64,000 nucleotides of DNA from Cordylochernes scorpioides. Taxonomy: Eukaryota; Arthropoda; Arachnida; Pseudoscorpiones; Chernetidae. The position numbers and the translations under genes were made by a program. Below, piece by piece: positions 12,693-52,790 of the stretch (positions are counted from its first letter, which is position 1; each line of letters starts with the position of its first letter). The notes beneath the pieces are model-generated. The model made no database searches, was not told where the DNA came from, and saw only the letters and a program-made list of their open reading frames with translations. The stretch is from positions 71,203,020 through 71,267,019 of the forward strand of contig CP092871.1 in the NCBI GenBank assembly GCA_030710605.1. The letters run 5' to 3'.

Positions 12693-12850
12693 GTTACGTC
12701 GTACCCAGACGCTATTCATGTACTTTGTTTACTCAGGATGCCACAACGTTAGTTCGAAGGGATGCAGATAAAGTTGGCGATTTATTATGGCTCTAAACAG
12801 AAGGAGTACAATCAGTAGGACTTGCCTTCAACCTCCCCGGCAGAAGTGTC

Positions 12851-18290: not shown

Positions 18291-18299
18291 CCCCTCCAT

Positions 18300-18637
18300 T
18301 CTATCGTCTGCTCCACATATACCCCACACATCATCAATATATATATTTAGCTAATATCTCACACACACACATATATAACAAAAAATTCAAAATTAAATAA
18401 TATCCGTATAAACAATAAAAATACTATTCGCATATAGTAAAAAAATATACAAATTATAAAAATATATATATTCCAATATTTATACATACTTTCCTTTTTT
18501 GCCAACATTTTTTTATTGTTTTAAAACGAAAAAGATTTTAGCTTTCAGAGGGTTTCCTTACAGCGATAGTGGACTAGAGTAAGATATTTCCTCCTGCCAC
18601 AATAGAGATTGGAGATGGAGATATGGAAATTATATAT
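18300..18637. other. AT-rich spacer, no gene
   Basis: Shared with 42358-42650. Contains TATATA and (AC)n tracts only. Confidence 0.6.
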
Positions 18638-18835
18638 ATTCACGAAAATTCTAAACTATTATGGACGCGTATGCTTCTTATAAAGATTAAACAATTTATT
18701 ACTGTCCTTACTGCAATAATAATGGGACGGCCTGGCTCATCAGTGCTGAACTCTCCCAGCGGTTTCTACATTTTATAAAAGGAATCATACGTGTCTATAA
18801 TAGTTTCGAATTTGCATAACAGATAGCGCGTTAAT
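18638..18835 (-). mobile_element. Short inverted-repeat element with partial ribozyme-like core (copy f)
   Basis: Inverted ends, AAACTATTATGGACGCGTATG-like on the left and TACGTGTCTATAATAGTTT on the right, finish in GATAGCGCG. The centre keeps the GAAACC, CTGATGAG and GGCCTGG boxes but lacks the cleavage-site strand. Its counterpart is 42165-42357. Confidence 0.7.
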
Positions 18836-18843
18836 ATGTATCA

Positions 18844-19198
18844 TCTACTTATATAATTGTCTTATTCTGTCTGTGTGAAGTTCACTGTGTGAAGTTCACG
18901 GATAGATTTTGGTCAGGATGGATAAAATAAAAAAAAGTGTCAAGGGATGGGAATCGAACCTACGACCTTCCGCTTACCGGGCAGATGCCATTACCACTAG
19001 GCTACCCTGGACATATTTTTCGTTCACATTTTTATTTTTATATTTTCAAGACACACACAGTTTGGGGCGGGACGTTTCACAAGAGAGACATCCACGGCGC
19101 CAATTTATAATTGTAACGAATAGTATTTTAATTAAAACATTTTTAAAATATATACGCACTCGGGTAAAACCCGGGCGTTGCCCGGGCCATTCGTCTAG
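18844..19198 (+). mobile_element. Non-autonomous Helitron with a tRNA-like segment, left copy only
   Basis: Starts TCTACTTATATAATTGTC directly after an A, ends with a GC-rich hairpin CCCGGGCGTTGCCCGGG and CTAG directly before a T. The right copy shows the uninterrupted A-T junction near 42150. This is the insertion signature of Helitrons: TC start, 3' hairpin, CTRR end, no target duplication. It contains a tRNA-like block at 18938-19012. No protein is encoded. Confidence 0.85.
18938..19012 (-). pseudogene. tRNA-like sequence (Thr-type anticodon loop) inside a Helitron
   Basis: On the minus strand the A-box-like TAGCCTAGTGGTAATGG and B box GGTTCGATTCC are present. An anticodon stem TCTGC/GCGGA closes a 7-base loop CCGGTAA, which would give anticodon GGT. 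Position 33 is C instead of the near-universal U, and the T stem has mismatches, so it is probably a decayed tRNA or SINE head. Confidence 0.5.
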
Positions 19199-19604
19199 TA
19201 ATATATATTTATATTAGTTATCAGATACCAAAAAATTAATCGTTGCCATTGCTTGATGATTTCTTTCAATTCAAATTTGACTTTGTAATTCCGGCTTCAT
19301 TTCAGTAATCTTGTTCCATTTATCATTTTTTGATAGGAACATTCCCAGCTTGAACTACGAGAGATTTTGATTATTTAACTTTCCTACCGTTATACCTCTT
19401 TTTAGAAAGCTCGCAGAAAGAAATATTAGTTCAAACTTGCCTGGTAATTCACAAATTCTTTTTGGGGGTATTCAATTTATAAATAAAAAATCCCTCAATA
19501 TGGTTTTTGAGACTACCTGGAGAACAAGCTCTCAGAAGACATTACTTGAAGAAAGAGACATAAAACTACTAAAAAACAAAATTAAAGAAAAATAAAATTC
19601 TATC
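19199..19604. other. No gene seen; shared sequence
   Basis: Matches 41388-41790 in reverse. AT-rich with no recognisable element. Confidence 0.5.
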
Positions 19605-19770
19605 TATAGTAGAACCTCCCTTTAGCGGACACCTCTCCACAAAGGACAGTTTTCATTTGCAAATTATCATTTTTACAATTTAGCAACTCTCCGGTAAGAG
19701 GATGCCTCTCCCTAAAGGACACTTTGGCTCTGCAATTAGGTGTTGTCTTTTACAGGGAGGTTGTACTGTA
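19605..19770. mobile_element. Fold-back MITE, pogo/Tigger-like ends (left copy)
   Basis: Nearly palindromic 166-bp element with ends TAGTAGAACCTCCCTTTAGC and its mirror. Repeated CTCTCC and AAAGGACA strings sit inside. Copies are at 41206-41387 and 27094-27273. The CAGTAGAACCTC terminus resembles pogo-class inverted repeats; this is an inference from the ends only. Confidence 0.65.
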
Positions 19771-19819
19771 GATAAGGAATTTTTTTCCGGAGGGAAATTG
19801 TCCTATAAAATCAAAAGTC

Positions 19820-19955
19820 GCATCTCCCGTCAAATTAAACTTCCAAGTTTACCAAAGCTGGTGTTGTGGCTTTATCACAGAACCCGGGACCACTAGTTTG
19901 CGGCGACGGTCAATAGATGGCGTCTAGTTTGGACGTTTAATTTGACGGGAGAGGT
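19820..19955. mobile_element. Fold-back MITE with CTCTCCCGTCA ends
   Basis: Inverted ends contain CTCCCGTCAAATTAAAC on the left and GTTTAATTTGACGGGAG on the right. The allelic copy is at 41015-41160. Related single ends (CTCTCCCGTCAA) occur at 20437, 40405 and 63470. Confidence 0.65.
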
Positions 19956-20430
19956 AACCTTCACTTATATATATATATGTTATATATATATACTTATGTA
20001 TATATATATGTTATATAAAAATATTATTTTATTCAAATTATAATTTCATAGATTCAAAGACCCTGCTAAATCGACCGCCAGGGGTCACACTTTGCATATA
20101 AAAACTCGTTGTTGTTCTTCCCCGTTGGCCGGCTCAAAACATTTGTACATTATGTAAATAAGCTTTTCATTTTTTATTCTTAGGCCTTAAGCCAGGCAGT
20201 ACTTTTGCCAAATTATGTTTATCCTAAAGCTCAATTAAAGCAATCTCTTATCAAAACTATTTTTAGTAATCATACTTTCAAGATTTTAGCCACGACTGCA
20301 TCACCAATACCATTTAGCACTAAAAAGAACCAACAAATAACTCCATAGCATAATCCCCAAGATTATCATAAATATACAAGCAGAAAATCAAATATCTTTT
20401 CTTTATATAAGATTATATATATATATAAAG
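19956..20430. other. AT-rich sequence, no gene
   Basis: TATATA-rich stretches at 19967-20025 and 20410-20430 bound about 370 bp with no recognisable feature. The right copy instead has a Helitron here (40430-40997). Confidence 0.5.
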
Positions 20431-20656
20431 ATCGCCTCTCCCGTCAAAATAGACGTCAAAACTAGATGCTATCTAGTGACACTTCTTTTCCGTGTGTCTT
20501 TTTAGTTATGCCATTTTGAAGTTACATCATTGTGCTTTGCGTGTCAATGCACATAAAAAAGCAAGTTTTTCTCATTCGAGGCTCTATTACTAACACAATA
20601 TTGTATGTACAACATATAAAATATGACATATATATATAATACAACATATATATATT

Positions 20657-20730
20657 AGATAGTAAAAAGGCATATATTGGCAAATAAATCTCTTATTCAA
20701 TCCAATATATGCCTTTTATTATCTAATGAT
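20657..20730. mobile_element. Small fold-back element
   Basis: Inverted ends GTAAAAAGGCATATATTGG and CCAATATATGCCTTTTATTA around a 25-bp loop. The same hairpin is at 40117-40190. Confidence 0.7.
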
Positions 20731-21410
20731 TTAAATATGGATTGCTCTATTTTCAAAAAAAAAAAAAGGTATATATTCAAAAACCTTTGAAAAAGACGTA
20801 CGTTCTGATCGTTGATGTAATAAAATCGCAGTTTACTTTCCTATCCAAGATGTGCCGATTTTTAATTTGAATGTTGATTCTTTTGGATTGCGATATTTTC
20901 TTTTTAGGAAAAAACGTGTCCCTTATTAGAGGTGTCTTATTCAATTTATTTAATCACTTTAGTCAGGGCCGTGAGGAAACTTTAACTTGAAATCTCAGTT
21001 TTGTCGTAATGAAGAAGTAAATTGTTTAGGGTTAGTTTTTGTGTTTAAATATTAACATCGATTTTATTCATTAATTTATACACACACTTAGTTTATCAAA
21101 TATTCTATATATTTTATGTATAATTAAAAACATTATATATATTTTTATGTATTTGTTTGTTTTCCTCATATGTTTCAACACTTAATTAAGCCGTTTACTG
21201 TTAATAGTTATTCAGAAATTAATTTTAAAAATGAACAATGAGTATCTTATTTATTGTAAAAAAACGAGTTTTCGAGATACGATACTCGACTACTGGCTTA
21301 TCAAAATTAAGTGGAGAAATGCGAACTGTTTATGCAGGTAAGCATTCGATTTTTACAAGTTGGCTTCTTTAGTAAATCTTGGGTATATTAAAGAACAATT
21401 CACTACAATA
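20731..21410. other. No gene seen; shared sequence
   Basis: AT-rich and present in both copies (right: 38500-39130). At 20780 the right copy has a mariner insertion (39136-40051). Confidence 0.5.
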
Positions 21411-21418
21411 GTATATAT

Positions 21419-21487
21419 AGCGGTCTTCAGATTAATTTGTCGAAACACCGCTGAGAGGATTCAGCACTGATAAACCAAGCCCTCTCA
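21419..21487 (+). ncRNA. Hammerhead-like permuted core, degenerate (copy b)
   Basis: Stem III strands AGCGGT (21419-21424) and ACCGCT, cleavage-type C at 21425, and GAAA at 21442-21445 are followed by a 2-base insertion. The CUGAUGA box has become CTGATAA at 21467-21473. GAGAGG/CCTCTC helix strands are present. The mutated box makes activity unlikely. The counterpart near 38410-38470 has lost the cleavage-site strand. Confidence 0.35.
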
Positions 21488-21907
21488 TTCAACCACTTTT
21501 ATCATTGCAGTAAGGTCTGTAGAGATAATATTTGATGATATATGTAAAAAGAAACACATAATGTGAATAAAATGATCACAAATTGTATCGATCGATGACA
21601 ATTGAATTTATAAAAAATACTTATTGCTTCAACAATGATTGTTACGGCACTCCTTCAGCCGTCATTGTTTGTATACAAGATTTCTTGGTTAGCAATATAT
21701 GGGTTAGTTGTGGATACAGCTTATTACGATGTACTTTATTACTCGAGTTTTAAAGGGATTAATATCTATATACAGTAGATGTCTTCATTGTCCGCCACAA
21801 GAAGGATCCTCCTTGGCACTGTCTTACTTGTTAATCCATACGGTCACACGCCCGGAGACAACTTGTCACGTCTTCTGTCAATGTCGATGTCACCAAACTG
21901 TCTGTTC

Positions 21908-26475: not shown

Positions 26476-26673
26476 TGCCAAATCTCATTATAATTTGTAA
26501 CATATAAATTTACTGGAAATATGTTTATTTTATTGCTCGATGCAATACCTTGTAATTGTATGTATGTGCCTCTACAGAACTATAAGCTTATGTCCATAAT
26601 TCACTAAACACACCTAAGCTGCCTTCCATAGAATATACAGAGTATATCCCAAACCAATCCAATACAATAGTAG

Positions 26674-26740
26674 AGCGGTCTAGAGATTAATTTGGAGAAA
26701 CCGCTGAGAGGATTCACTACTGATGAGCCAAGCCCTCTCA
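26674..26740 (+). ncRNA. Hammerhead-like permuted core (copy a)
   Basis: Stem III AGCGGT (26674-26679) pairs with ACCGCT (26700-26705); cleavage C at 26680; stem I TAG (26681-26683) with CTA (26717-26719); GAAA at 26697-26700; CTGATGA at 26720-26726; stem II GCCAA (26727-26731) with TTGG just before GAAA. The extra helix is GAGAGG (26706-26711) with CCTCTC (26734-26739). The pair next to GAAA is G-A instead of G-C. Downstream of a Penelope endonuclease fragment. Confidence 0.45.
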
Positions 26741-37679: not shown

Positions 37680-37845
37680 GAACAGACCGTTTGGACATCT
37701 GCAGTGACAGAAGATACGACAAGTTGTCTCCAGGCGTGTGACCGCGTGGATTAACCAGGAAGATGGTGCCAAGGAGGATCCTTCTTGTGGCGGACAATGA
37801 AGACATATACTGTATATAGTTATTAATTAACACAAAGCAATAACG

Positions 37846-38137
37846 CGCCATCTATATATATAAAATAAAAGAATTTAAAAGCGCGAATGTTTCTTTTATA
37901 CATAAAACGAACTTCTACTGCCCTTACTGCGATGAAAAAATGATCCAATACAGTATTAGAGCTCTGAGAAGCGGTCTGGTGGGTTAAATTGGCGAAACCG
38001 CTGGGAGGGTTACCACTGATGAGCCAAGCCCTCCCAATATATTTTTCATCGCAGTAAGGGCAGTAGAAGTTCGCTTTATGTATAAAAGAAACATTCGCGC
38101 TTTTAAATCCTTTCATTTTATATAGTTATTAATCCCC
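37846..38137 (+). mobile_element. Short inverted-repeat element with ribozyme-like core (copy c)
   Basis: Arms of about 85 bp: AAAAGCGCGAATGTTTCTTT and CTTCTACTGCCCTTACTGCG on the left, mirrored on the right. The outer left end contains GCGCCATCT. The 100-bp centre carries the core at 37970-38035. Confidence 0.82.
37970..38035 (+). ncRNA. Hammerhead-like permuted core (copy c, best preserved)
   Basis: Along the strand: AGCGGT (37970-37975), cleavage-type C 37976 (GUC triplet), stem I TGGTG (37977-37981), linker, stem II TTGGC (37989-37993), GAAA (37994-37997), stem III ACCGCT (37997-38002), GGGAGGG (38003-38009), stem I TACCA (38011-38015), CTGATGA (38016-38022), stem II GCCAA (38023-38027), CCCTCCC (38029-38035). 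All invariant hammerhead core bases are present and all three stems pair (one G-U in stem I). The strand order is cleavage site, GAAA, CUGAUGA, unlike known hammerhead types. A fourth helix, GGGAGGG/CCCTCCC, closes a pseudoknot. Confidence 0.5.
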
Positions 38138-39135
38138 TTAAAACTCGAGTAATAAAGTACATCGTACTAAGCTGTATCCACAACTAACCCATATATTGCT
38201 AACCTAGAAATCTTGTATACAAACAATAACGGCTGAAGGAGTGCCGTAACAATCATTGTTGAAGCAATAAGTATTTTTTATAAATTCAATTGTCATCTAT
38301 CGATACAATTTGTGATAATTTTATTCACATTATGTGTTTCTTTTTACATATATCATCTAATATTATCTCTACAGACCTTACTACAATGATAAAAGTGGTT
38401 GAATGAGAGGGCTTGGTTTATCAGTGCTGAATCCTCTCAGCGGTGTTTCGACAAATTAATCTGAAGACTAAACTACTATTGTAATGAATTTGTTTTATAT
38501 ATACACACACACACACCCAACATTTACTAGAGAAGGCAACTTGTAAAAATCGAATGCTTACCTGAATAAACAGTTCGTATTTCTCCACTTAACTTTGATA
38601 AGCCAGTAGTCGAGTATCGTTGCTCGAAAGCGCGCTTTTTTTACAAAAAATAAGATATTATTTATTAATTATTTTAAAATTAATTTCTGGATAACTATTA
38701 ACAATATACTACTTAATTAAGTGTTTAAACATATAAGGAACAAACAAATATATATAAATACATATAATGTTTTTAATCCTACATAAAATATATAGAATAT
38801 TTGATGAACTGTGTGTGTATAAATTAATGGAAAATATCGATGCTACTATTTAAACACAAAATCTAAACGATAAATGATATACTTCTTCATTACGACAAAA
38901 CTGAGATTTCAAGTTAAAGTTTCCTCACGGCGCTGACTAAAGTGATTAAATAAATTGAATAAGACACCTTTAACAAGGAACACGTTTTTTTCCTAAAAGA
39001 AAATACCGCAATCCAAAAGAATCAACATTCAAATTAAAAATCGGCACATCTTGGATAGGAAAGTAAACTGCGATTTTATTACATCGACGATCAAAACGTT
39101 CGTCTTTTTCAAAAGGTTTTGAATATATATATAAA
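38138..39135. other. No gene seen; shared sequence
   Basis: AT-rich partner of 20780-21760. Near 38396-38470 lies the eroded counterpart of copy b, lacking the cleavage-site strand. Confidence 0.5.
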
Positions 39136-40051
39136 CAAAGGGGGATCAATAAATAAGATGAATTATCTTATTTCTTAAAAATTTAAAAAGCAAAAATAAT
39201 TTAAACCACAGAATATTAAAATATAACATCGAGAGAATATTTAAGGTGTTCTGTTCTTTTTTCTCACGCGCGGCGCGAGACTTATAAATAAACTAAAATG
39301 GAAGTTCCCTTGAAGGATTGCACCACGCTTTAACAACGTGCAGTTATTCGTTTCTTGAATGCAGAAGGTATTCAAGCATCTCAAATATGCCAAAGAATGA
39401 AAGATATCTATGGTGAGTCTTGTTTGTCTCAAAAAAACATTTATAAATGGGTTAACGAGTTCAAAAATGGACGAATTACATGTTCCTCAGGTCTCAACGT
39501 TCGGCCGGTAAAGTTTTATTAACAATTTTTTGGGATGTTGATGGACCAATCTGTCTTGATTTCTTATCCTCAAGGCAACGTATGAACAGCGACCTTTATT
39601 GCGACATTCTTGTAAATAAGCCAAAGCCCGTTATAAGAAACAAAAGAAGAGGAAAGCTTAGTAAAGGTGTTCTCTTCCTTCATGATAATGCAAGGCCGCA
39701 TACATCATGTAAAACTGTATCTACAATCATTAAATTAGGTTTTGAAGTTTTAGAACATCCTGCATATAGTCCAGACCTAGCCCCCTCTGACTATTTCCTT
39801 TTTGGACTACTAAAGAAGGAGTTAAAGGGAAAGCGATTTGACTCGGATGAAGATGTTCAGAAAGCGGTGTAAGATTTTTTTCACACGCTTCCTAAGAGTG
39901 CATATAAAGAGGATATTTACAAGTTGCCAGAACGATGGAGACGATGTATAGAAAGCCAAGGTGATTATTTTGAATAAATCAAGTCCTAATTTTTAATATC
40001 GTTCTTTTTTTTAATAAATTATAATTCACCTTATTTATTGATCCCACCTTG
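39136..40051 (+). mobile_element. mariner element M4, internally deleted, right copy only
   Basis: Ends contain GGGATCAATAAATAAGATG and the mirrored CACCTTATTTATTGATCCC, finishing CCTTG then TA at 40052-40053. The left copy has no insertion here (about 20780). At 0.92 kb it is shorter than a full element. Confidence 0.85.
39298..39977 (+). pseudogene. mariner transposase with internal deletion (M4)
   Basis: N-terminus MEVPLKDCTTL at 39298, a stop, then QRAVIRFLNAEGIQASQICQ and the helix-turn-helix NIYKWVNEFKNGRI. About 100 residues are missing at 39480. Then KVLLTIFWDVDGPICLDFL, FLHDNARPHTS (second Asp) and YSPDLAPSDYFLFGLLKKEL (third Asp). A stop after QKAV, and the end LPERWRRCIESQGDYFE. 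The first catalytic Asp region is within the deletion. Confidence 0.87.
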
Positions 40052-40116
40052 TATATATATACCTTTTTTGTTTTGTTTTGTTTTGAAAATAGAACAATCC
40101 ATATTTAAATCATTAG

Positions 40117-40190
40117 ATAATAAAAAGGCATATATTGGATTGAATAAGAGATTTATTTGCCAATATATGCCTTTTTATTATCTAATATAT
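40117..40190. mobile_element. Small fold-back element (right copy)
   Basis: Counterpart of 20657-20730 with the same AAAAAGGCATATATTGG arms. Confidence 0.7.
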
Positions 40191-40429
40191 ATGTTGTATT
40201 ATATATAATGTAAATATATGTCATATTTTATATGTTGTACATACAATATTGTGTTAGTAATAGAGTCTCGAATGAGAAAAACTTGCTTTTTTATGTGCAT
40301 TGACACGCAAAGCACAATGATGTAACTTCAAAATGGCATAACTAAAAAGACACTCGGAAAAGAAGTGTCACTAGATAGCATCTAGTTTTGACGTCTATTT
40401 TGACGGGAGAGGCGATCTTTATATATATA

Positions 40430-40997
40430 CTAGGCGAATGACCCGGCTTCGCCCGAGAAACCCCTTGGGTGCAACTTCCTTCATACTAAAAATATATCAA
40501 AAATAAATATTAGAAGTGCCATAGAATAGCAATACAGAAGTAACACATAAACTACAGGAAAAAAAGTGTGTGTGATGGCAAAAATTGTATTATATTAGTG
40601 TTTAGATATTTGATTTAATTAATATAGTTGATATAATAATATATATTTATATTATATATAATATAAATGAGTTTTAAAAAGTGTTTTAAAAAATGCATCG
40701 GCCGGGAATCGAACCCGGGCCGCCCGCGTGGCAGGCGAGCATTCTACCACTGAACCACCGATGCTTTAAAAAAATGGCCATATTTAGGTATTCATTCCAT
40801 TCCGGATTAGTCCGCGTAAAAAAAAAAAAGTTATTCAAATGAAAAAAAGAAATAGCCAAAAATACTAATCAAAATGCAGCCGAAAATTTTCCTCAGGTTT
40901 ATAAAAAGCGACATGCAAAATTTGGTACCAATTGGTTCAGTAGTTTTTGAGTTTATCGCGAAACAGACAGACAGAAATTGACTTTTATATATATAGA
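40430..40997 (-). mobile_element. Non-autonomous Helitron carrying tRNA-Gly, right copy only
   Basis: On the minus strand it starts TCTATATATATAAAAGTC (40997 leftward) after an A, then CTGTCTGTCTGTTTCGCG. It ends with CTCGGGCGAAGCCGGGTC, then CATTCGC and CTAG (40433-40430) before a T. The left copy lacks it. 568 bp. The tRNA gene lies at 40694-40764 on the same strand. Confidence 0.85.
40694..40764 (-). tRNA. tRNA-Gly(GCC): tRNA-Gly (anticodon GCC)
   Basis: 71 bases including the discriminator A. Acceptor stem GCATCGG pairs perfectly with CCGATGC. The A box TGGTTCAGTGGTAGAATGC and B box GGTTCGATTCC are canonical. The anticodon stem CCTGC.. encloses loop TGCCACG with U33 and anticodon GCC. 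The T stem GCCCGGG region is intact. A T-run (rc of 40688-40693) follows directly as a polymerase III terminator. All arms fold without mismatches, so it can be functional. It sits inside a Helitron, so it may be dispersed in many copies. No intron. Confidence 0.96.
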
Positions 40998-41014
40998 TAT
41001 ATATATATAGAAGT

Positions 41015-41160
41015 GAAGGTCACCTCTCCCGTCAAATTAAACGTCCAAACTTGACGACATCTATTGACCGTCTCCGCAAACTAGTGGAGTCGGGTAGGTG
41101 ATAAAGCCATAACACCAGCTTTAGTAAACTTGGACGTTTAATTTGACGGGTGAGGCGACC
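41015..41160. mobile_element. Fold-back MITE with CTCTCCCGTCA ends (right copy)
   Basis: Counterpart of 19820-19955: CACCTCTCCCGTCAAATT on the left, AATTTGACGGGTGAGG on the right. Confidence 0.65.
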
Positions 41161-41205
41161 TTTGCTTTTATAGATCAATTTCCCTCCGGAAAAAAATTCC
41201 TTATA

Positions 41206-41387
41206 TACAGTAGAACCTCCCTATAAAGGACAACACCTAATTGCAGAGCCAAAGTGTCCTTTAGGGAGAGGTATCCTCTTACCGGAGAGTTGCTAAATTG
41301 TAAAAATCGTAATTTTGCAAATGAAAACTGTCCTTTGTGGAGAGATGTCCGCTAGAGAGGTGTCCGTTAAAGGGAGGTTCTACTATA
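41206..41387. mobile_element. Fold-back MITE, pogo/Tigger-like ends (right copy)
   Basis: Counterpart of 19605-19770, starting TACAGTAGAACCTCCC and ending GGGAGGTTCTACTATA. Confidence 0.65.
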
Positions 41388-41799
41388 GATAGGATTTTAT
41401 TTTTCTTTAATTTTGTTTTTTAGTAGTTTTATATGTCTCTTTTCTTCAGGTTATGTCTTCTGAGAGCTTGTTCTCCAGGTAGTCTCAAAACCCATATTGA
41501 GGGATTTTTTATTTATAAATTGAATACCCCCAAAAAGAATTTGTGAATTACCAGGCAAGTTTGAATTAATAAATCTTTCTGCGAGTTTTCTCAAAAGAGG
41601 TAAAACAGTAGGAAAGTTAAATAATCAAAATCTCTCGTAGTTCAAGCTGGAAATGTTCCTATCAAAAAATGATAAATGTAACAAGATTACTGAAATGAAG
41701 CCGGAATTACCAAGTCAAATTTGAATTGAAAGAAATCGTCAAGCAATGGCAACGATTAATTTTTTGGTATCTGATAACTAATATAAATATAATACAAAG
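41388..41799. other. No gene seen; shared sequence
   Basis: Partner of 19199-19604; AT-rich. Confidence 0.5.
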
Positions 41800-42150
41800 C
41801 AATAACGCGCCATCTATACATATAAAATAAAAGAATTTAAAAGCGCGAATGTTTCTTTTATAATAATACAAACTTCTACTGTCCTTACTGCGATGAAAAA
41901 TATATTGGGAGGGCTTGGCTCATCAGTGGTGAACCCTCCCAGCGGTTTCGCCAATTTAATCCACCAGACCACTTCTCAGAGCTCTAATACTGTATTGGAT
42001 CATTCTGCTTTTATATGCTACACTGAAGGATGGAATCTTAGAAAGCCAAGCCCTCCCAATATATTTTTCATCGCAGTAAGGACAGTAGAAGTTTGTATTA
42101 TTATAAAAGAAACATTCGCGCTTTTAAATTCTTTTAATATAAATATATAT
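41800..42150 (-). mobile_element. Short inverted-repeat element with ribozyme-like core (copy d)
   Basis: The same arms as copy c (AAAAGCGCGAATGTTTCTTT, CTACTGTCCTTACTGCGATG) enclose a longer centre of about 160 bp with the core in opposite orientation. The GCGCCATCT end is near 41808. Absent from the left copy. Confidence 0.82.
41907..41973 (-). ncRNA. Hammerhead-like permuted core (copy d)
   Basis: Read on the minus strand: AGTGGT (41973-41968), C 41967, TGGTG (41966-41962), TTGGC (41954-41950), GAAA (41949-41946), ACCGCT (41946-41941), GGGAGGG (41940-41934), CACCA (41931-41927), CTGATGA (41926-41920), GCCAA (41919-41915), CCCTCCC (41913-41907). Stem I is five Watson-Crick pairs where copy c has a G-U; stem III has one G-U where copy c has G-C. 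All core bases are intact. Confidence 0.5.
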
Positions 42151-42164
42151 TATGATACATTAAC

Positions 42165-42357
42165 GTGATATCTGTTATGCAAATTCGAAACTATTATAGA
42201 CACGTATGATTCCTTTTATAAAATGTAGAAACCGCTGGGAGGGTTCAGCACTGATGAGCCAGGCCCTCCCATTATTATTGCAGTAAGGGCAGTAATAAAT
42301 TGTTTAATCTTTCAAAGAAGCATACGCGTCCATAATAGTTTCGAATTTTCGTGAATA
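42165..42357 (+). mobile_element. Short inverted-repeat element with partial core (counterpart of copy f)
   Basis: Arms CGAAACTATTATAGACACGT and the mirrored CGCGTCCATAATAGTTTCG. The centre has GAAACCGCT (42228-42236) and CTGATGAG (42251-42258) but no cleavage-site strand. Confidence 0.7.
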
Positions 42358-42659
42358 TATATAATTTCCATATCTCCATCTCCAATCTCTATTGTGGCAG
42401 GAGGAAATATCTTACTCTAGTCCACAATCGATGCAAGAAAACCCTCTGAGAGCTAAAATCTTTTTCGTTTTAAAACAATAAAAAATGTTGGCAAAAAAGG
42501 AAAGTATGTATAAATATTGGAATATATAAATTTTTATAATTTGTATATTTTTTACTATATGCAAATAGTATTTTTATTGTTTATACGGATATTATTCAAT
42601 TTTGAATTTCTTGTTATATATGTGTGTGTGAGATATTAGCTAAATATATATATTGATGA
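42358..42659. other. AT-rich spacer, no gene
   Basis: Partner of 18330-18637. Confidence 0.6.
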
Positions 42660-42699
42660 TGTGTGGGGTATATGTGGAGCAGACGATAGAATGGAGGGG

Positions 42700-42835
42700 A
42701 CGTACCTGGAGAGCTGGGCAGCCGAACAACCATCCCACAGGATCCCACTCCACTACTGTGACGTCATCCGGGCTCTGATTGGATGCGCCAAGTTGGTTGG
42801 ATCGATGGTGTTCAACAGGCGCGGTTCACAGGTGC
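42700..42835 (-). promoter_or_regulatory. Promoter-like block, right copy
   Basis: Reverse counterpart of 18166-18290. TGACGTCA at 42759-42766, the CCAAT box complement CTGATTGG at 42775-42782 and the donor complement ACGTAC/CTGG near 42702-42711 are all preserved. Confidence 0.35.
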
Positions 42836-42839
42836 TGGG

Positions 42840-43531
42840 AGGGTCTTCTTGTACATGTGCTGGAAACACGTAGAGTCATGTACATGTGGTGGGAAGGTCT
42901 TCTTATACATGTGCTGAAAACATGTAGAGTCATGTACATGTGGTGGGGGGGGGGTCTTGTACATGTGCTGGAAACACGTAGAGTCATGTACATGTGGTGG
43001 GAGAGTCTTCTTGTACATGTGCTGGAAACACGTAGAGTCATGTAGATGTGGTGGGAGGGTCTTCTTGTACATGTGCTGAAGCACGTAGAGTAATGTACAT
43101 GTGGTGGGAGGGTCTTCTTGTACATGTGCTGGAAACACGTTGAGTCATGTACATGTGGGGGGAGGCTCTTCTTGTACATGTGCTGGAAGCACGTAGAGTC
43201 ATGTACATGTGGTGGGAGGGTCTTCTTGTACATGTGCTGGAAGCACGTAGAGTCATGTACATGTGGTGGGAGGGTCTTCTTGTACCTGTGCTGGAAACAT
43301 GTAGAGTCATGTACATGTGGTGGGAGAGTCTTATTGTACATGTGCTGGAAACACGTAGAGTCATGTACATGTGGTGGGAGGGTCTTCTTGTACATGTGCT
43401 GGAAGCACGTAGAGTCATGTACATGTGGGAGGAGGGTCTTGTACATGTGCTGAAAACACGTATAGTCATGTACATTTGCTGAAACATATAGTGTTTTCAA
43501 CATGTGCTGGAAACTAGTGATATCATGTACA
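42840..43531. repeat. 54-bp tandem array (right copy)
   Basis: About 13 units of the array described at 16064-18165, in reverse orientation. Contracted relative to the left copy. Confidence 0.95.
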
Positions 43532-43825
43532 TCAACATATATAGTCACGACCGTCTTTTCACCGTCAATCAATTCCTCAATTCCTCATGTCACGGATGCG
43601 CGCGCATCATCATTATGATCATTATCATTATCTAATGATAATAATAATAATTATTATTATTATATTATTATTATTATTTTATTATTATCAACATATATAT
43701 AGTCACGACCGTCTTTCTTCAATTCCTCAATTCCTCATGTCACGGATGCGCGCGCATCATCATTATGATCATTATATCATTATCTAGTGATAATAATAAT
43801 AATAATTATTATTATATTATTATTA

Positions 43826-44534
43826 CTAGCGGATGTACCCGGCTTCGCCCAGGTTTTTCTCGAGGGAATGTTTGTAGTCTAGTAATAAGAAAATATACTA
43901 CACCTAAAAACTATCAGAGAAAAGAGAAACCACGGAAGGTGAACAGAAAAATGCTTACAATGGATGTTATGTTTACGATATCAAGTTAAATAAGTTGCAT
44001 ATCAAGTTTGCATATGTTGGTCACTATAAATTTGTATATTTGTTAGGCGAAATTAGAAACATGATAAAATAATTGGGTATTTAAAAACAAATGTAGAAAT
44101 AAAAGTTGAAGTATAATAAACAATGTTAAAGATTAGTTTTAATTATTAATCAAGATTGTGTGTGAATATGTGAGAAAGATGTAATATCGTTGTTGTTTTC
44201 TTGGCCGACTGTTTTACATATGGTGTTATCTTAAAATTGCTTGTTTAGAATATTTTTTAGATTGAGATTATTAGCTAGTATGTAAAAAAATTAACTCTGT
44301 TGAAATTTAATTTTGTATTTATATATAAATAAAATTAACTCTGTTGATTTTTTTTGTATTTAATCGATAACAGCGAAGTTACGCATGTTAATGTTAGGAA
44401 ATATATTTTGATGTTAAGCAAAACCTGCTCCATCTCGTTTTACATAAATGTTGAAAATTTGGTTGAAATTGATGCATTGTAACGAAAGTTTTTAGTGATG
44501 TCCACTTATGAAATTTCCATTTTATTAATATAGA
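43826..44534 (-). mobile_element. Non-autonomous Helitron nested in reverse
   Basis: On the minus strand it starts TCTATATTAATAAAATGG (44534 leftward) after an A and ends AGCCGGGTACATCCG..CTAG (43829-43826) before a T. The hairpin GGGCGAAGCCGGG is the same as in 23868-24563. Confidence 0.75.
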
Positions 44535-44705
44535 TTATTTTATTATTAATATCAACATATATAGTCACGACCGTCTTTCCTCCTCAATTCCTCAATTCCT
44601 CATGTCACGGATGCGCGCGCATCATCATTATGATCATTATCTTCTATAGAAGCTTCTATCTTTATAATTATGTATATTCTAAGATCAAAGAAATTGCGCA
44701 TAAAA

Positions 44706-44794
44706 TTAAATCCAAAAGACAAAAAACCTCTCGCAATCAGTATCTTTTATTAAAAGATACTGATTGCGAGAGGTTTTTTGTCTTTTGGATTTAA
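44706..44794. repeat. Perfect palindrome, 44-bp arms
   Basis: Arms 44706-44749 and 44751-44794 are exact complements around a single T at 44750 (TTAAATCCAAAAGACAAAAA outward). No mismatch is seen, so it is young or maintained. It lies in the 3' half of the composite Helitron. Confidence 0.92.
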
Positions 44795-45206
44795 TAATTA
44801 TGTATATTTACAAAAAGTCAATTCGCTCGCGCCTCTAGCGGTGAAAATGAGGGGTAATACCAGCTGACCTAATGTACATGTAAAGTCTGGAGCGGGACGT
44901 TTCACAAGAGTGACATCCACGGCTCCAATTTATAATTGTAACAAAAAGTATTGGAATAAAAACATTCAATCGGGTAAAACACGGGCGTTGCCCGGGTCAT
45001 TCGTCTAGTGTGGTATAACAGTGATGAATATTTTAACCATATTTCAAATAGTTTTCTTAAATACCCTTGCTAGAAATATTCCTTGGTAATTGCTCATTCA
45101 GACAGGTAAATCAACAAATACAATATTCGGTAAGTCTAGAGATTGAGCTGGAGAAACTCCCCGAAAGTAGCGTTATCATAGATAAGCCAATTGTTCCAAT
45201 AATATA

Positions 45207-46640
45207 CCAGGTATGTCCCATAAGTTCCTGGACTGAGTCCATAAAAAAAGGTAAGATATTTTTTAAAAAATGTATTAAATATTTTCAAAGTAATACCCCC
45301 TTTCTTTAACGCACCAGCGCCATCGTTTCTCCCAATTGTCGAAACAGGTCTCTTTTGGAATGCTCTTCAATGCCAACAGCGATTTTTCTATTATGTCATC
45401 CCTTGTGTCAAAATGTCTTCCGTTTAGAACTGCTTTAGTTTGGGGAACAGGAAAAAGTCATTTGGTTCGATGTCTGGGGAATAGAGTGGTTGAGGTAGGA
45501 TTTGTGTCCCGTTTTTCGCCAAAAATCTCGTCACCAAGTGCGCTGTGTGAGGGCGGGCATTGTCATGGTGTAGGATCGAGTCAACATTAGTCCATTTTTC
45601 TGGCCTTTATTTTTCGAATCGCTTCCCTTAGACGGCGAAGAATGCCCAAATACATTTCCTTAATAACTGTTTGGCCTGCAGGAAGATACTCGTGATGAAC
45701 AATGCCCTTGTTATCCAAAAAGACGACCAGCAACACCTTGTTTCTGGATTTCAATATCCTGAATTTTTTGGGTCTAGGCTCACCCTGACATCTCCACTCG
45801 GCAGATTGACGCTTGGTTTCAGGGTCATAGCCATAGACCCATGTCTCGTCGCCTGTGATTATCTTGTCTTTCCATTCCGGATCCGTTCTTGTAATTTCCA
45901 ACATGTCCTCACAGGTTGCAAGCCGACACAGTTTTTGCTCATTAGTGAGGAATCTTGGGATGAATTTTGCAGGAGTCTTTTTGAGCTTCAAATCTTCGGG
46001 TAAGATCCTTCCAATCGTTGTTTTAGAGATGCCTGTGTCTTGCTCTAGCTCCAGCAACGTGGTTCGAGGATTTTCCTTTACCAAATCGGTGATTTTTTCA
46101 CATTTTCATCAGTCCTTTGTAACTTTGGGCGTCCTTGACGAGGATCATCTTCAATGGAAATTCTGCCAGCTTTAAATATAGAATGCCATTCAAAAACAGT
46201 TGTTCTCTTTGGTGCGTCATTGGGGAATGCTTTATTAAGCATTTCAAAGGTTTCGGTTGCTGATATTTGAAGTTTCACACAAAATTCTATGCAAATCCTC
46301 TGCTTCAATTTTTGTTCCATCGTAAAATCGCCGCAGCGCTAGGTGTAACCTTTAAATAAATTAGAATTACCTTGGCGCGCGCGCACCTACCGACTCGATA
46401 TTGGTACCACCGTGTTGCCAGATATCTTTTCTATATTAACACTCAAATTTATTTACATTTTTCATTTATGAGCATTGAAGAGCATTCCAAGAGAGACCTG
46501 TTTCGACAATTGGGAGAAACGATGGCGCTGGTGCGTTAAAGAAAGGGGGGTATTACTTTGAAAATATTTAATACATTTAAAAAATATATATCTTACCTTT
46601 TTTTATGGACTCAGTCCGGGAACTTATGGGACATACCTTG
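45207..46640 (-). mobile_element. mariner element M3 (right copy)
   Basis: Reverse counterpart of 14436-15867, with TA at 45205-45206 and 46641-46642 and the same 170-bp inverted end duplication (45207-45378 against 46470-46640). Confidence 0.92.
45300..46320 (-). pseudogene. mariner transposase, decayed (M3, right copy)
   Basis: MEQKLKQRICIEFCVK at 46320, with Trp intact in TVFEWHSIFK. A frame change after ENVKK and another near 45600, both shared with the left copy. The catalytic trace is as at 14754-15776 (ITGDETWVYGYDPETK, HHDNARPHTA, YSPDIEPNDF). Slightly less damaged than the left copy. Confidence 0.9.
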
Positions 46641-46642
46641 TA

Positions 46643-47370
46643 TATAGAAGTACCGTAGAGGTACAGCCTCCTCCACGCTGACGAGAGCCAACAGCGCGAA
46701 ACGCGTTCGTGGATGGCTTTTCTTGATTTATCAAGAAATTGGGTTGGCCAAATATCAGGGAACAGTTTAAATCAATGTTTAGTTGATTTCTGTTCCACTA
46801 GACAACGCCTTTGGTGCTTAGAAGTAAAGAGAGAGGAGGATAGAAACGTGTTCCAATTTTCAAAAAGGTGTGAACTGTTGACAAAATAATTTGCGCAGAG
46901 CGCTATAAACTACATCATCATATTCCATTTTCAAATGTATGAATGATAGCAGGGTTTATACACCCTTACCTAACCTCTCTCAATATCTAGAGATAATAGA
47001 TCGACATATATCGTCGCAAAAAGTGATAAAATAGAGAGAGAGAAGAAGACGATCACAGATAGCAAAATGACCAAATAAGCAAATCATGACCGCGCAAAGA
47101 GCATTTTATATGGTAGAGCGCCATCTATCGTAATGAATATCAACTAAACATTGGTCTATTCCAGACTATTGACTAACCCAGTTTCTCGATAACTCAAGTT
47201 AACCATCTGGAAATATTGGCCTTCATCGCCCTGCTGCACACTGGAAAACAACCATAAACCAAAGTGATCAATGAAGCTTTGAGAAAATCAAAAAATTTAT
47301 ATTTAAAGGTTAATTTCTCCTCGAGTACGCTAAGATATATGAAAAAGCATTTTGTAAATATCTATAGTAA
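46643..47370. other. No gene seen; shared sequence
   Basis: Partner of 13703-14433. Confidence 0.5.
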
Positions 47371-47653
47371 CCATGTGGTACAGGCCATGATAATCATGGT
47401 CGGTATTTAGCGAATGCTTTTACTGTAAGTACACCACATGTCTACACATGTGAAAAGCAGCTCGATTTTTGCACTTAAAAATGTGCCAGAGCCCGTTTGG
47501 TTACTTGCACTCGCTGGTGAAGTTGAACTTTTGCAATAATCGGGGGCCATTGGAGAATTATTATTATTAGAAAAAAAGCCAAATGCGAGATTCGATCCCG
47601 GGTCGTAGCGGTCGAAAACCAACGGTTTAGACCACCCTTCCACCGACCCCCTA
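47371..47653 (-). repeat. tRNA-derived SINE (right copy)
   Basis: Counterpart of 13412-13702. B-box complement GATTCGATCCC at 47590-47600; ACCACATGTCTACACATGTG near 47431. The head pairs better here (GGTTTTCGACCGCTACGACC) than in the left copy. Confidence 0.8.
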
Positions 47654-47924
47654 ATCTAGAAGTATGAAAATGCGTACCCTTGCTTTGATAGTAGGATAAA
47701 TAGATGCCAGATTCCTACGTGATCTGGAAGTATATCAAAAATTAATCACAAGATTTGTGGCTAGACAGAAAAACAGACAGGAATGTGGAAGCGTGTTAAA
47801 TAAATGCTTTTAGAACTATTCAGATACATACTTCACGTCCAACATTTCAATACCTGGATTTAAAAAAGGACAAAAATTGTCGTTTCTTCAATCTCTTTTA
47901 TAAACATATTGTAACATGGATGAC

Positions 47925-48215
47925 AAGGCCAAGATACCAGAGTAAAGTTTGGGAAAGAGGGGTGGACTCCAGCTGCCCCCGTGGTCATGTGGCAGGCGCT
48001 AAAAACAGCATTTCTGTGTAGGGGAGTACAGAGTCTGGTTACATCTGCGGGGAGGAGAAGACGTGGTGACTTTCCTCCGGGTGTGTGGATGATCCTATAA
48101 GGTGGTGCCAGGAGAGCCTGACATCGGAGTGACCTACAAGAAGGTGTAGTCCAGGCTGTATGTGTATAGTGTGGAGCGGAAGGTTTCACAAGAGTGACAT
48201 CCACAGCGCCAAGGA
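47925..48215 (-). repeat. Dispersed repeat of unknown type (right copy)
   Basis: Counterpart of 12851-13150. Confidence 0.5.
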
Positions 48216-48351
48216 CACTTCTGCCGGGGAGGTTGAAGGCAAGTCCTACTGATTGTACTCCTTCTGTTAAATCGCCAACTTTATCTGCATCCCTTCGAAC
48301 TAACGTTGTGGCATCCTGAGTAAACAAAGTAGCGTCTGGGTACGACGTAAC

Positions 48352-48692
48352 AATATATATTTACGTCCTAGACTTTCCCTTCGTGGAAATGGCTATATTT
48401 GGCTTGCTGATAACACATATACAAATATAATAACCCGCAGGGTGGTCTCAGGAACATCGACAAGTATTATTAGATTTACTTGAACTAAAGATTTCAAGAC
48501 AAAACCTTATCGCGAGTAAAGACATATATGAGTCTGCTACCGAGGTATAAGTTATACAGGCTTTTGAACTTTTAAATAGACCCAAACTATTCCTAGTGAA
48601 AAATAACACCACTTTTTGCATTTCCCCCCGAAATATATTACGAGGGGAACGTTAATATAAAAACCCAAATATATAGCATGTTATTTGGTCGG
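48352..48692. other. No gene seen; shared sequence
   Basis: Partner of 11756-12102; AT-rich. Confidence 0.5.
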
Positions 48693-49007
48693 AGCATAAT
48701 TATTGCGGGGTTTTATTTTTTACCAAAAGACATTTAAATGATAATTCCGGAGCATATTCCCCATCAACTTCTATCTCACAGCTCCCGATATTTTTTAGAC
48801 AACGGGCGATGGTCGAATGGTCCAGGGTGGAGCCAACATTCCATGGCTGCCTGTGGTTGAACATTTCCTTCTTGATCCGCCAAGTTTGTATGATCCGATT
48901 CCAACTTGGAATTTTGCCGAACGTTGCTTTGCCAAGAAGTTGGTTAAGATCACGAATTGACTGTGCTGTATTCCAATTGTTCTCGAAGAGGCATAACAGA
49001 ATATAGA
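48693..49007 (-). CDS. Open segment of unknown function (right copy)
   Basis: Counterpart of 11441-11755 with the frame and stop kept, ending LLVKNKTPQ. See that entry for content. Several differences from the left copy change amino acids, so selection on the protein is not demonstrated. Confidence 0.33.
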
Positions 49008-49509
49008 TATGATTTTACAAATGCATTTTCAGAATCCGTGAAAAAGAGAAACATTTTCATTATTAAAATCAAACACGATCAGAATATCGGAAGAAAGACT
49101 TTCTTTGACTGTGAATTATTCGAATGTGAAATATATTCAAGATAGGTTGTACTATAGAGAGTATTCTTCATTGTACCGGCTTCAGAGAGAAAGGAAATAT
49201 TAACCAGTTTGTTATGCCCATCAACGTAAACAATTCAAATATTTACAATCTCTTCTCTTGTTCTTTATCCAATAAGGATTTTTAAAAACTTGTACCATTA
49301 ATTCTCTACTGTCCCTTACTAGTATCCCTAGGGGAACTTAGCGCTTTAAAATTGAAATAAAATAAAATAAATTCTCTCTACCGTTCAACAGAAAAACAGC
49401 AACAAACAGCCTTTTATTGGGGACCTATGGCCTACACAGGATTCACCCAGGTACATAATTACTTAGAAAATATGAGTTAGTCATTTACAGGTGATCTTTT
49501 ATTTACATA

Positions 49510-49525: not shown

Positions 49526-49734
49526 TATTTACATATGGCTTTCTTTTCTCAATTTTTCTTCTCTTGCGCAGCCCTGTAAAGCTTGTATAGGCCTAATGCA
49601 TTTGAATTATTCTTTGTCGTCCTAGACAACAGAGCCTCCAGTGAAAGATAATTTGATCAAATTTTAGGTAAAAGAAGTTCCCTTTTACTTATTCAATTCA
49701 ACAGAAAATATAAGCATGCAAATATGCAAGATAA

Positions 49735-49953
49735 TATGCAAATTTCATTTTAAATATTTATGTTGTATTCTCTTTTTACGCTATTATCTCTTCAGTATGT
49801 AAATTTATTGGTGTATATATTAGTTCTTCTCCTCTAATAGCATGTTAGTACGTTTTTACTATCCACGCCCGTTGAAGAACGTTTTGTTCGAAAGCTTGCG
49901 GTAATAAAGAAATTTACACAAGAAGCTCCTCTTAATGTTTATTATTGTTTTAA
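49735..49953 (+). repeat. Penelope-like element, left terminal repeat
   Basis: Differs from 52572-52790 at only a few bases (ATTTATG/ATTCATG, TTCTCTTT/TTATCTTT, ATTGTTT/ATTATTT), so the insertion is recent. Holds a hammerhead-like hairpin at 49869-49905. Confidence 0.92.
49869..49905 (+). ncRNA. Hammerhead-like motif in Penelope terminal repeat
   Basis: CCGTTGA (for CUGAUGA) 49869-49875, A, stem II GAAC (49877-49880) with GTTC (49886-49889) around GTTTT, then GAAA (49890-49893). Two core bases deviate. Known: many Penelope-like elements carry type I hammerheads in their terminal repeats. Confidence 0.45.
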
Positions 49954-50007
49954 TGATCGTGATTTTAAGAGTTTAATTTCTACAATCTTAGCCTTAGTCC
50001 TTTTACA

Positions 50008-52344
50008 ATGAGTCACCCGAATCCTGATCTGCGTTTTTATGTACACCAATTGGAAAAGAAATCCCTACAACTGTCTAAATGGAGGCTTCATCTTACCTTC
50101 AACCTGCATTGCAAGAAAGTCGGTTTCATCCCGCCGTCCCTTAGAATAAAAGATCCTGTCAAGAATCCATTCTCCTCAAAGCTCACCAGGAAGTTTCATT
50201 TGGACTTACTCGAGGCCAGAATACAAGGTTCTCATTCCAATATTAGATTCCTCTCCAGATCTATTAAAGGCCTCATCTTTCTTCTCCACCAGTTAATGTC
50301 TGCGGACGACATCGCTAACCTAGTAAGTTCCATCACCCTTAAGGTTCATCAACAAGAAATTGCGCTTAAGAATAGGCATCTATCAAAATTGGCATATTGG
50401 AAAAGAAAGTTTAATTTTCCTGATGTTGCCGAGTCCACGGAATCTGCTCCTCCCAACGTCCTAAATTTGTCTTCAACCAAGCTGTCTGATAGAGAGGAGA
50501 GGATCTTAGCGTTAGGTCTTCAATTCATCCCCCCAGCTAAACCGGACATCCCTAGAATAATTGCCGGAATCGAAGGCGTCACAAGCTCACTTAATCATCT
50601 TGAAACTCTTAAAGTACGAAACGCCGTAGTTCAAATTCTCAGCAGACCTTCACAGATACCACCTTCCAGCAATAGACATCGCCCGATCATTAAGAAGTTG
50701 CAAAGTTACAAGTCTCTCATTTTCATTAAAGCGGACAAAGGAAGCCACACTGTCGTACTTGACCGCTCAGATTATCTTTCTAAGATGACGGACATTCTCC
50801 AGGACAACACTACCTTTTCTTCCATTTCACCCCAGGAAAATCTTGCGTTGACCAAATCGTTCAGAAAGGCGCTCGGCGAAATGAAAAAATCCAGCATCAT
50901 CACACCTGATCAATTTTCTCAATTTACATCTTGCCTGGATAGGGAAGCTTATATTTATGGCTTGCCTAAGGTACACAAGCCGGGGGTCCCACTCAGGCCC
51001 ATAATAGCTTATCATCTTTCTCCAGCCTACTCTGTAGCCAAGTTTTTGGTAAGTTTTTTGTCCCCTCTCATGAAAGACAATCCTAACACATATAGCATCA
51101 CGCATCCCCCCAGTTTCATAGAAGACCTCCTTGATTTACAACCACCACCCCTACACAGTATGGTGTCTTTTGATGTCACGTCCTTATACCTCTCACTTCC
51201 ACACTCTCTCATTGCTGACAAATTGCAATCGTTCCTTATTACCAATAACATTGACACACAAACGGCTTCCCCTATCCTGCAACTGGCTTCTCTCTGCCTC
51301 TCGATTTGCACTTTCACCTTCAACAAGCAGTTTTATAAACAGACCAGAGGAACCCCTATGGGTAGTCCCCTATCGTCAATCATCTCTGAAATAGTCATGG
51401 GTTCTTTGGACACATGGATCAATCAAGCCCTCCCTTCCGATATATACTATTGGAGGAGATATGTAGACGATATCTTTTGCATTATCAAAACAGACAGCCT
51501 TCAACTCACATACAGTACCTTGCACAATTTCAACACCCACATTAAGTTTACATATGAAACAGAAATAGACTTTGTTTTACCTTTCCTAGACATCCTTATT
51601 ATTCGCACCCCTCAGTTTTTTCACACCTCTGTTTTCCAAAAGAAGCACATCCCTCCCCAATATACGCATTTCTCCTCCAATAGTCCCATCTCCTTTAAAA
51701 TTAATACAGTCAGGACCTTAACTAAAAGAATTTTTACCCATTGTTCCTTACCCGTTTTTAAAACAATAGAAAGAACTAGAATCCATTCCTTATTAACAAC
51801 CGCTGGTTATCCCATAGATTTTATAGAAAAACATACTTTTGATCCATGTGTCCACAGAACCACTACAATTCATAGGGCCACATGTTGGCTCCCGTTCTCC
51901 CCTGCCGCAGTATCCATATCCAGAGTCCTACGTCCATACGGCATAAAAGTTCTCTACAATAGTCCCCCCAACTTAGCCACCCTCCTTAGACATCACATCA
52001 CCAAATCTGATAAACCCACCCTACCCATAAACTCTACCGGCGCAGTTTATTCCGTACAGTGCCTGAATTGCCCAACTTCTTATGTTGGGGAAACGGGCAG
52101 AACCACTGGCATCCGTATTTCAGAACACAGACGCAACATCCGCAATAAAGATCCTAAATCCTTAATTTTTACACATATAGCACAAACAGGCCATAGTTTT
52201 GATCTCGACCATCCTCAAGTTAAATACCGGCACATACATAACAAACATCACCGACTCTGCCTAGAATCTATTATTTCCACACAAAACAATAGTTGTAACC
52301 GCAGAATAGACCTCCCAGACATTTACCAGATACTCTATAAATAG
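50008..52344 (+). CDS. Penelope-like reverse transcriptase with GIY-YIG endonuclease
   Basis: 778 codons, intact, ATG at 50008. The N-terminal 230 residues are basic and unassigned. Reverse transcriptase landmarks: LIFIKADKGSHTVVLDRSDY, YGLPKVHKPGVPLRPIIAY, MVSFDVTSLYLSLP (first Asp), QTRGTPMGSPLSSIISEIVM and WRRYVDDIFCII (YVDD active site). The KVHK and RGTPMGSPLS strings are characteristic of the Penelope class. The C-terminal GIY-YIG endonuclease follows from residue 690: CLNCPTSYVGETGRTTGIR, HIAQTGHSFDL, RLCLESIISTQNN, NRRIDLPDIY. All key residues are visible and there is no stop, so the protein may be functional. Length fits the family (about 700-850). Confidence 0.97.
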   Translation: MSHPNPDLRFYVHQLEKKSLQLSKWRLHLTFNLHCKKVGFIPPSLRIKDPVKNPFSSKLTRKFHLDLLEARIQGSHSNIRFLSRSIKGLIFLLHQLMSADDIANLVSSITLKVHQQEIALKNRHLSKLAYWKRKFNFPDVAESTESAPPNVLNLSSTKLSDREERILALGLQFIPPAKPDIPRIIAGIEGVTSSLNHLETLKVRNAVVQILSRPSQIPPSSNRHRPIIKKLQSYKSLIFIKADKGSHTVVLDRSDYLSKMTDILQDNTTFSSISPQENLALTKSFRKALGEMKKSSIITPDQFSQFTSCLDREAYIYGLPKVHKPGVPLRPIIAYHLSPAYSVAKFLVSFLSPLMKDNPNTYSITHPPSFIEDLLDLQPPPLHSMVSFDVTSLYLSLPHSLIADKLQSFLITNNIDTQTASPILQLASLCLSICTFTFNKQFYKQTRGTPMGSPLSSIISEIVMGSLDTWINQALPSDIYYWRRYVDDIFCIIKTDSLQLTYSTLHNFNTHIKFTYETEIDFVLPFLDILIIRTPQFFHTSVFQKKHIPPQYTHFSSNSPISFKINTVRTLTKRIFTHCSLPVFKTIERTRIHSLLTTAGYPIDFIEKHTFDPCVHRTTTIHRATCWLPFSPAAVSISRVLRPYGIKVLYNSPPNLATLLRHHITKSDKPTLPINSTGAVYSVQCLNCPTSYVGETGRTTGIRISEHRRNIRNKDPKSLIFTHIAQTGHSFDLDHPQVKYRHIHNKHHRLCLESIISTQNNSCNRRIDLPDIYQILYK

Positions 52345-52571
52345 CTTGTCTTTCACCCCCCCCCCCCCCCTCTTATATCTCAAAGATAGTGGTAGCACTG
52401 GGTGGGACCCTCCCTTTCCCCTGCCTTGGTCTTGTTGATTTTAACTTCCATATACTGTTTTATTCTATGTTCTGTTGGTGTAGGGATGTCGCCGTTTTGA
52501 TAATAATTTTTTACCTTAGTTTTTAGTCTCATTCAAGTTTATTGCTTATTTTTTAGTCGTCACGTTTGTAT

Positions 52572-52790
52572 TATGCAAATTTCATTTTAAATATTCATGT
52601 TGTATTATCTTTTTACGCTATTATCTCTTCAGTATGTAAATTTATTGGTGTATATATTAGTTCTTCTCCTCTAATAGCATGTTAGTACGTTTTTACTATC
52701 CACGCCCGTTGAAGAACGTTTTGTTCGAAAGCTTGCGGTAATAAAGAAATTTACACAAGAAGCTCCTCTTAATGTTTATTATTATTTTAA
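52572..52790 (+). repeat. Penelope-like element, right terminal repeat
   Basis: Direct repeat partner of 49735-49953. Confidence 0.92.
52706..52740 (+). ncRNA. Hammerhead-like motif in Penelope terminal repeat (right)
   Basis: Identical to 49869-49905: CCGTTGA, GAAC/GTTC stem, GAAA at 52727-52730. Confidence 0.45.

Follow-up and report, generated by a model that had tools for sequence, protein, structure and literature searches.

The question raised by this locus is whether a hammerhead core whose three strands stand in a reversed order is a genuine ribozyme and, if so, what kind of element carries it. The locus lies in a stretch of 64,000 nucleotides from Cordylochernes scorpioides, which was analyzed as a whole and is here called the window; the genome assembly comprises 2.62 Gb in 24 contigs. 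An arthropod host agrees with the 150 scored matches to the cuticle family Chitin_bind_4, all above its cut-off; none was found in 14 control genomes, which may or may not have included an arthropod. The features discussed are collected in Table 1.

A hammerhead core with non-circularly permuted strands

Reading of the sequence at 37970-38035 identifies all invariant hammerhead bases, stems I to III and a fourth helix, and the blocks follow one another from 5' to 3' as cleavage strand, GAAA strand and CUGAUGA strand. The original prediction of a 1-3-2 strand order with an additional pseudoknot helix GGGAGGG/CCCUCCC is thereby confirmed. Its suggestion that this is a new ribozyme topology has to be given up, because the identical order, together with the same helix between stems I and II, was published in 2023 as type-SGC (PMC10085705). 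Eckert et al. describe a non-circular permutation with the block order S-G-C and a helix joining stems I and II, along with 583 sequences, in vitro cleavage of five type-SGC candidates and compensatory mutants of one of them. The core at 37970-38035 is, judged by its sequence, a type-SGC hammerhead with predicted cleavage.

Table 1. Coordinates of the ribozyme core, its insertion and related features in the window
Feature	Position	Strand	Basis or remark
Inserted element, 291 bp	37828-38118	+	Inverted partial unit (to ~37939) and direct partial unit (~37939-38118) with core
Target-site duplication, left copy, 15 bp	37813-37827	.	Direct repeat; single copy, one mismatch, at 21758-21772
Target-site duplication, right copy	38119-38133	.	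Repeat search and empty-arm comparison
Stem III, 5' strand AGCGGU	37970-37975	+	Sequence, descriptor; U37975 = U16.1
Cleavage triplet GUC	37974-37976	+	Sequence
C17 of GUC	37976	+	Predicted cleavage 3' of C17; site assigned by comparison with type-SGC (PMC10085705)
Stem I, 5' strand UGGUG	37977-37981	+	Sequence; pair 2 is GC in A/B, AU in C
Linker, stem I strand to stem II strand	37982-37988	+	Sequence
Stem II, 3' strand UUGGC	37989-37993	+	Sequence; outer pair UA in A, CG in B
Conserved GAAA	37994-37997	+	Sequence; A37997 = A15.1
Stem III, 3' strand ACCGCU	37997-38002	+	Sequence
Stem I-II bridging (fourth) helix, 5' strand GGGAGGG	38003-38009	+	Sequence; pair 2 changes from GC to AU in C/D
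Stem I, 3' strand UACCA	38011-38015	+	Sequence; outermost stem I pair G.U
Conserved CUGAUGA	38016-38022	+	Sequence
Stem II, 5' strand GCCAA	38023-38027	+	Sequence
Bridging helix, 3' strand CCCUCCC	38029-38035	+	Sequence
Second intact A-subfamily insertion	41783-42149	-	Core 41906-41975
B-subfamily core	61008-61077	-	Sequence; GUA, stem II CUGGC/GCCAG
C-subfamily core	26672-26740	+	Sequence; stem I UAG/CUA, bridging GAGAGG/CCUCUC
D copy with CUGAUAA, predicted inactive	21417-21487	+	Twin 38404-38479 (-)
Penelope-like element	49732-52790	+	222-nt direct repeats 49732-49953/52569-52790 (98% identical), open frame 49969-52341

The hammerhead reading itself was upheld. A descriptor for the order cleavage-GAAA-CUGAUGA (stems I to III of at least 4 bp, fourth helix of at least 5 bp, G.U allowed) matched the window twice (37975, plus strand; 41968, minus strand) and matched none of 300 dinucleotide shuffles of the window. 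Across the loci compared, most of which were chosen for carrying the repeat, it matched 39 times in 221,179 bases. The copy at 37970-38035 is one base short between stem I and the fourth helix, as are 4 of 60 aligned copies. Its nested fold (-29.6 kcal/mol, z -2.77, with 2 of 200 shuffles equally good) consists of two hairpins, formed by stem III and by the bridging helix; the program folds nested pairs only, and stems I and II, as pseudoknots, lie outside its reach.

Hammerhead families in Rfam (HH9 and others) have the same catalytic core, and none of the hammerhead models in Rfam 15 matches its permuted form here, where other families gave sub-threshold matches only. At gathering level, Rfam found two tRNAs across the window and no ribozyme at the core. 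A search of phage DNA gave no match, and the exact core pattern occurred 0 times in IMG/VR. The segments AAGCCC and GGAGGG, which resemble a Twister motif, led us to consider Twister; this candidate was dropped, as the strands are arranged in an unsuitable order and Rfam has no match at the core. Elsewhere, locus L028 contains a Twister-P1-like motif (3454-3508, minus strand; 34.4 bits, E 3.9e-4) that scores below the gathering score of 67.2. The window also contains a minimal type I hammerhead-like motif with a palindromic stem III (dimer type) at 46662-46727 on the plus strand, with a twin near 14398 on the minus strand; HH9 scores the former at 18.5 bits (E 0.029), below gathering.

Copy number, subfamilies and compensated changes

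A 35-mer reaching from stem II through CUGAUGA has 33,085 exact occurrences in the 2.62-Gb genome, and its reversed control has none. Classified with exact 40-mers by the outer stem II pair, copies genome-wide number 16,950 with UA, 13,344 with CG and 333 with CA; the UG class can hold at most 2,458, because all four classes contain the 35-mer. Among 14 arbitrarily placed 5-kb pieces, two contained copies (one A copy in one and, in the other, a C array whose cores follow at 367 bp).

The repeat unit is about 367 to 379 bp long and occurs in tandem. L028 contains 6.7 and 3.5 units of 373 bp (98% match), L019 contains seven cores spaced 371 to 379 bp, L029 contains a C unit of 377 bp, and L035 contains a C array with cores 367 bp apart. 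Cores of the CG class, which we take as subfamily B, lie 371 bp apart among the matches listed. When folded as a circle in search of a rod, the unit was no stabler than shuffles (17 of 100 and 30 of 100 equally good). At G000:C1:7156396-7161964, two unit arrays stand head to head on opposite strands, with cores mostly 372 bp apart. In L019 (3594-6232) and L028 (4972-7364), variants are common to every second or third unit, which suggests some amplification at the DNA level.

Subfamilies were distinguished by their core sequences. In subfamily A, the triplet is GUC and stem II is UUGGC/GCCAA; in B, they are GUA and CUGGC/GCCAG. Subfamily C is marked by stem I UAG/CUA together with the bridging helix GAGAGG/CCUCUC, and D is decayed, with CUGAUAA. 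The catalytic bases are identical in A, B and C except for the permitted change at H17. When one A unit was compared with one C unit (the core being taken from an intact neighboring C copy), 60 of 72 positions were alike in the core and 206 of 339 in the rest. When the genome was searched with subfamily C, 3,283 candidates emerged at first look, and 40 of them were scored.

For alignment, six window copies were compared by BLAST (E 0.01) with the window and 26 of 28 loci, L001 and L008 being excluded because they repeat the window and L002. This gave 109 places with 98 distinct sequences, from which 79 distinct cores were extracted. We aligned 60 of these (alignment A1); the other 19 were dropped by eye because a part of the core was missing or unrecognizable, and the alignment therefore favors intact copies.

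In A1, 89.9% of 1,370 pair cells are paired, compared with 88.3% after column shuffling and 35 to 54% in slid controls. Cells changed on both sides number 27, compared with 8.5 after shuffling, and the covariation score is 0.122, compared with 0.094; slid controls score no higher than 0.082. None of 500 shuffles reaches the observed value in any of these three measures. Double changes occur in 10 pairs, a number equaled or beaten by 5 of 500 shuffles and also reached by the +2 slide; further pair types number 26, compared with 24.7 in shuffles, 150 of 500 of which reach that number. All of these statistics are inflated by kinship among the copies.

Compensated changes are present in stem I (pair 17-59, GC to AU in 4 rows), stem II (pair 30-78, UA to CG in 8 rows) and the bridging helix (pair 48-85, GC to AU in 6 rows); in stem III, apart from G.U changes, a double change occurs only once (1 of 60 rows), and the outer stem I pair is unpaired and uncompensated in 24 of 60 rows. 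The compensated changes that separate the subfamilies probably represent few independent events. Outside the core, A and C have a candidate long-range stem in common, CTACTGTCC/GGACAGTAG versus CTACAGACC/GGTCTGTAG, recognized by eye and containing two compensated differences.

These results bear on two alternative readings. Since a single copy alone is short, the core might have been a chance match in AT-rich repeats; the absence of descriptor matches from the shuffles, the tens of thousands of exact copies of the core stretch and the compensated changes among copies rule this out for practical purposes. According to the other, the repeat is a real retroelement whose ribozyme was formerly active and is now irrelevant, so that present copies spread without cleavage. 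While every invariant base is kept in 45 of the 60 aligned cores, an invariant base is missing in the remaining 15, and D copies carry CUGAUAA; moreover, insertion by an Anolis Penelope protein in vitro did not depend on hammerhead activity and was not impeded by hammerhead mutants (PMC11167929). Against this, the 40-base core strand is kept without change in 30,294 copies, the variable pair of stem II being UA or CG, and the 98% likeness of the array units in L028 suggests a recent expansion of intact cores. We regard a relic ribozyme as quite unlikely.

Insertion, 3' ends and the Penelope-like element

The copy at 37828-38118 borders the second arm of an inverted duplication (11122-21772 and 38119-49333, about 91 to 97% identical in the main pieces), which later insertions interrupt. 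The first arm provides the empty site: the target is single there and doubled around the element in the second arm. The duplication is also useful for dating insertions. A tandem minisatellite of ~54 bp, at 16060-18162 and 42828-43532, is much longer in one of the arms, and a mariner-like transposon with inverted ends (45138-46640) apparently sits, as judged by eye, within a decayed copy of the permuted core.

Insertion ends were surveyed in 42 clusters in which one or more stretches are at least 88% similar to the A unit; units are numbered from u1, the first base 3' of the predicted cleavage. There were 64 outward 3' ends, of which 25 lie at u145-159, 20 at u175-189 and 19 elsewhere, some of the last being cut by locus ends or N; two positions ~32 nt apart thus hold 45 of the 64. 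In clusters with two outward 3' ends, one end of each class was found in 15 of 22, two of one class in none, and an end outside both classes in 7. The number of independent one-of-each insertions is nearer 13, because L026 and L027, with two insertions each, seem to be a single region in duplicate. Direct repeats of at least 13 nt lie beside 6 of the 15 one-of-each insertions, including the copy at 37828-38118; in mismatched flank pairs, repeats of at least 12 occur in 8 of 210, two of the eight being cross pairs between L026 and L027. Ends of C copies are more scattered than those of A, mostly at u166-206 and also at u104, u138 and u257. An exact start at the cleavage site, with unrelated sequence preceding it, was seen in only two of the copies compared, both in L005.

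The distribution of ends speaks to a third alternative, a DNA-level satellite or foldback MITE with merely ribozyme-like helices, spread by transposase or unequal crossing-over with no RNA step. Head-to-head copies do resemble terminal inverted repeats, and the arrays contain higher-order repeats. However, the inverted arms vary in length and at the 5' end, yet most 3' ends fall at two fixed positions, a pattern that reverse transcription would produce. In addition, A, B and C differ in their catalytic bases only by the permitted change at H17, and the compensated changes respect the pseudoknotted core. A spread at the DNA level alone is therefore improbable, though slightly less so than a relic ribozyme.

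The window also contains a Penelope-like element, an assignment that rests partly on its sequence motifs. Its frame encodes 791 amino acids with an RVT_1 match (E 2.9e-11) and a GIY-YIG match below the cut-off (E 0.29), and in the PDB the protein weakly matches three entries (E about 8e-4), which are reverse-transcriptase proteins. The open frame and the 98% identity of the 222-nt repeats suggest recent Penelope-like activity in this genome. No CUGAnGA motif was seen by eye in the repeats of this element. From the ends and from the co-occurrence in the window, we infer a link between the retrozyme-like repeat and Penelope machinery.

Taken together, it is likely that the repeat is a non-coding animal retrozyme-like element of about 367 to 379 nt with one type-SGC hammerhead per unit, mobilized by Penelope-like machinery, with cleavage and circles as presumed steps. 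Direct support comes from the core and its helices, the tandem units, the insertion with target duplication, the clustered 3' ends, the high copy number and the structure-preserving differences between subfamilies. Multimeric transcripts would self-cleave after the H17 base, and the unit RNAs would be ligated to circles. A Penelope-like reverse transcriptase/endonuclease would then copy circular or multimeric RNA, with synthesis starting at ~u152 on one target strand and at ~u183 on the other. With such start sites on opposite target strands, two copies would come to face each other head to head, and synthesis that runs through several units would give rise to arrays.

Comparison with published ribozymes, retrozymes and Penelope-like elements

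What is novel here is the setting of type-SGC, that is, animal chromosomes and a Penelope-style retrozyme family. Non-circular hammerhead permutations were previously reported from RNA and DNA whose hosts were mostly unknown; the available part of PMC10085705 reports type-SGC from no genome of a known organism and describes HRIMA-1 from metatranscriptome contigs with hairpin ribozymes. We found no later report of SGC hammerheads in genomes among the matches listed, which covered literature other than subscription papers and preprints. With its tens of thousands of copies, this genome assigns the SGC form to a class of hosts, indicates a probable life cycle and offers a natural collection of mutations for study.

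With HRIMA-1 and its variants, the core has in common the S-G-C order, all invariant bases, stems I to III and a helix that connects stems I and II at their other sides. A stem III directly adjoining the bridging helix, as here, is found in a few of the published type-SGC sequences; their linker from stem I to stem II typically has 3 nt, compared with 7 nt here when a 5-bp stem I is counted (PMC10085705). Their setting also differs from the multi-copy retroelement in animal chromosomes described here. There is a further possibility, which we consider evenly balanced, that type-SGC hammerheads are native to animal genomes and drive a large class of Penelope-mobilized retrozymes with circular RNA intermediates, that metatranscriptomic SGC ribozymes may derive from or share descent with them, and that each insertion represents two reverse transcriptions from two different fixed RNA sites, one per side of the break.

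Animal non-LTR retrozymes, according to Cervera and de la Pena (2020, PMC7229834), are non-coding tandem repeats of 150 to 450 bp with low GC content, one type I hammerhead per unit and, when present, target duplications of >4 bp. The family described here resembles them in its tandem units of 367 to 379 bp, in its low GC content (36% in unit A, 34% in unit C), in the lack of coding capacity of unit A (longest ATG frame, 37 amino acids) and in its 15-bp target duplication with an empty site. It differs in carrying a type-SGC rather than a type I hammerhead in each unit, an indication that a retrozyme need not have a hammerhead of type I or III.

Penelope-like elements, according to PMC11167929, have two adjacent internal start sites for reverse transcription with a tail of 30 to 40 bp between them; both target strands are extended, and copies are tandem or partly tandem. 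The two end sites ~32 nt apart are likewise tail-like here, whereas the A unit, unlike those elements, has no protein gene. In Anolis, that study observed the strands to be alike in their start sites; here, by contrast, one end class per side was found in 15 of 22 clusters, and this one-of-each pattern allows a direct test of a model in which Penelope-like elements use double target-primed reverse transcription.
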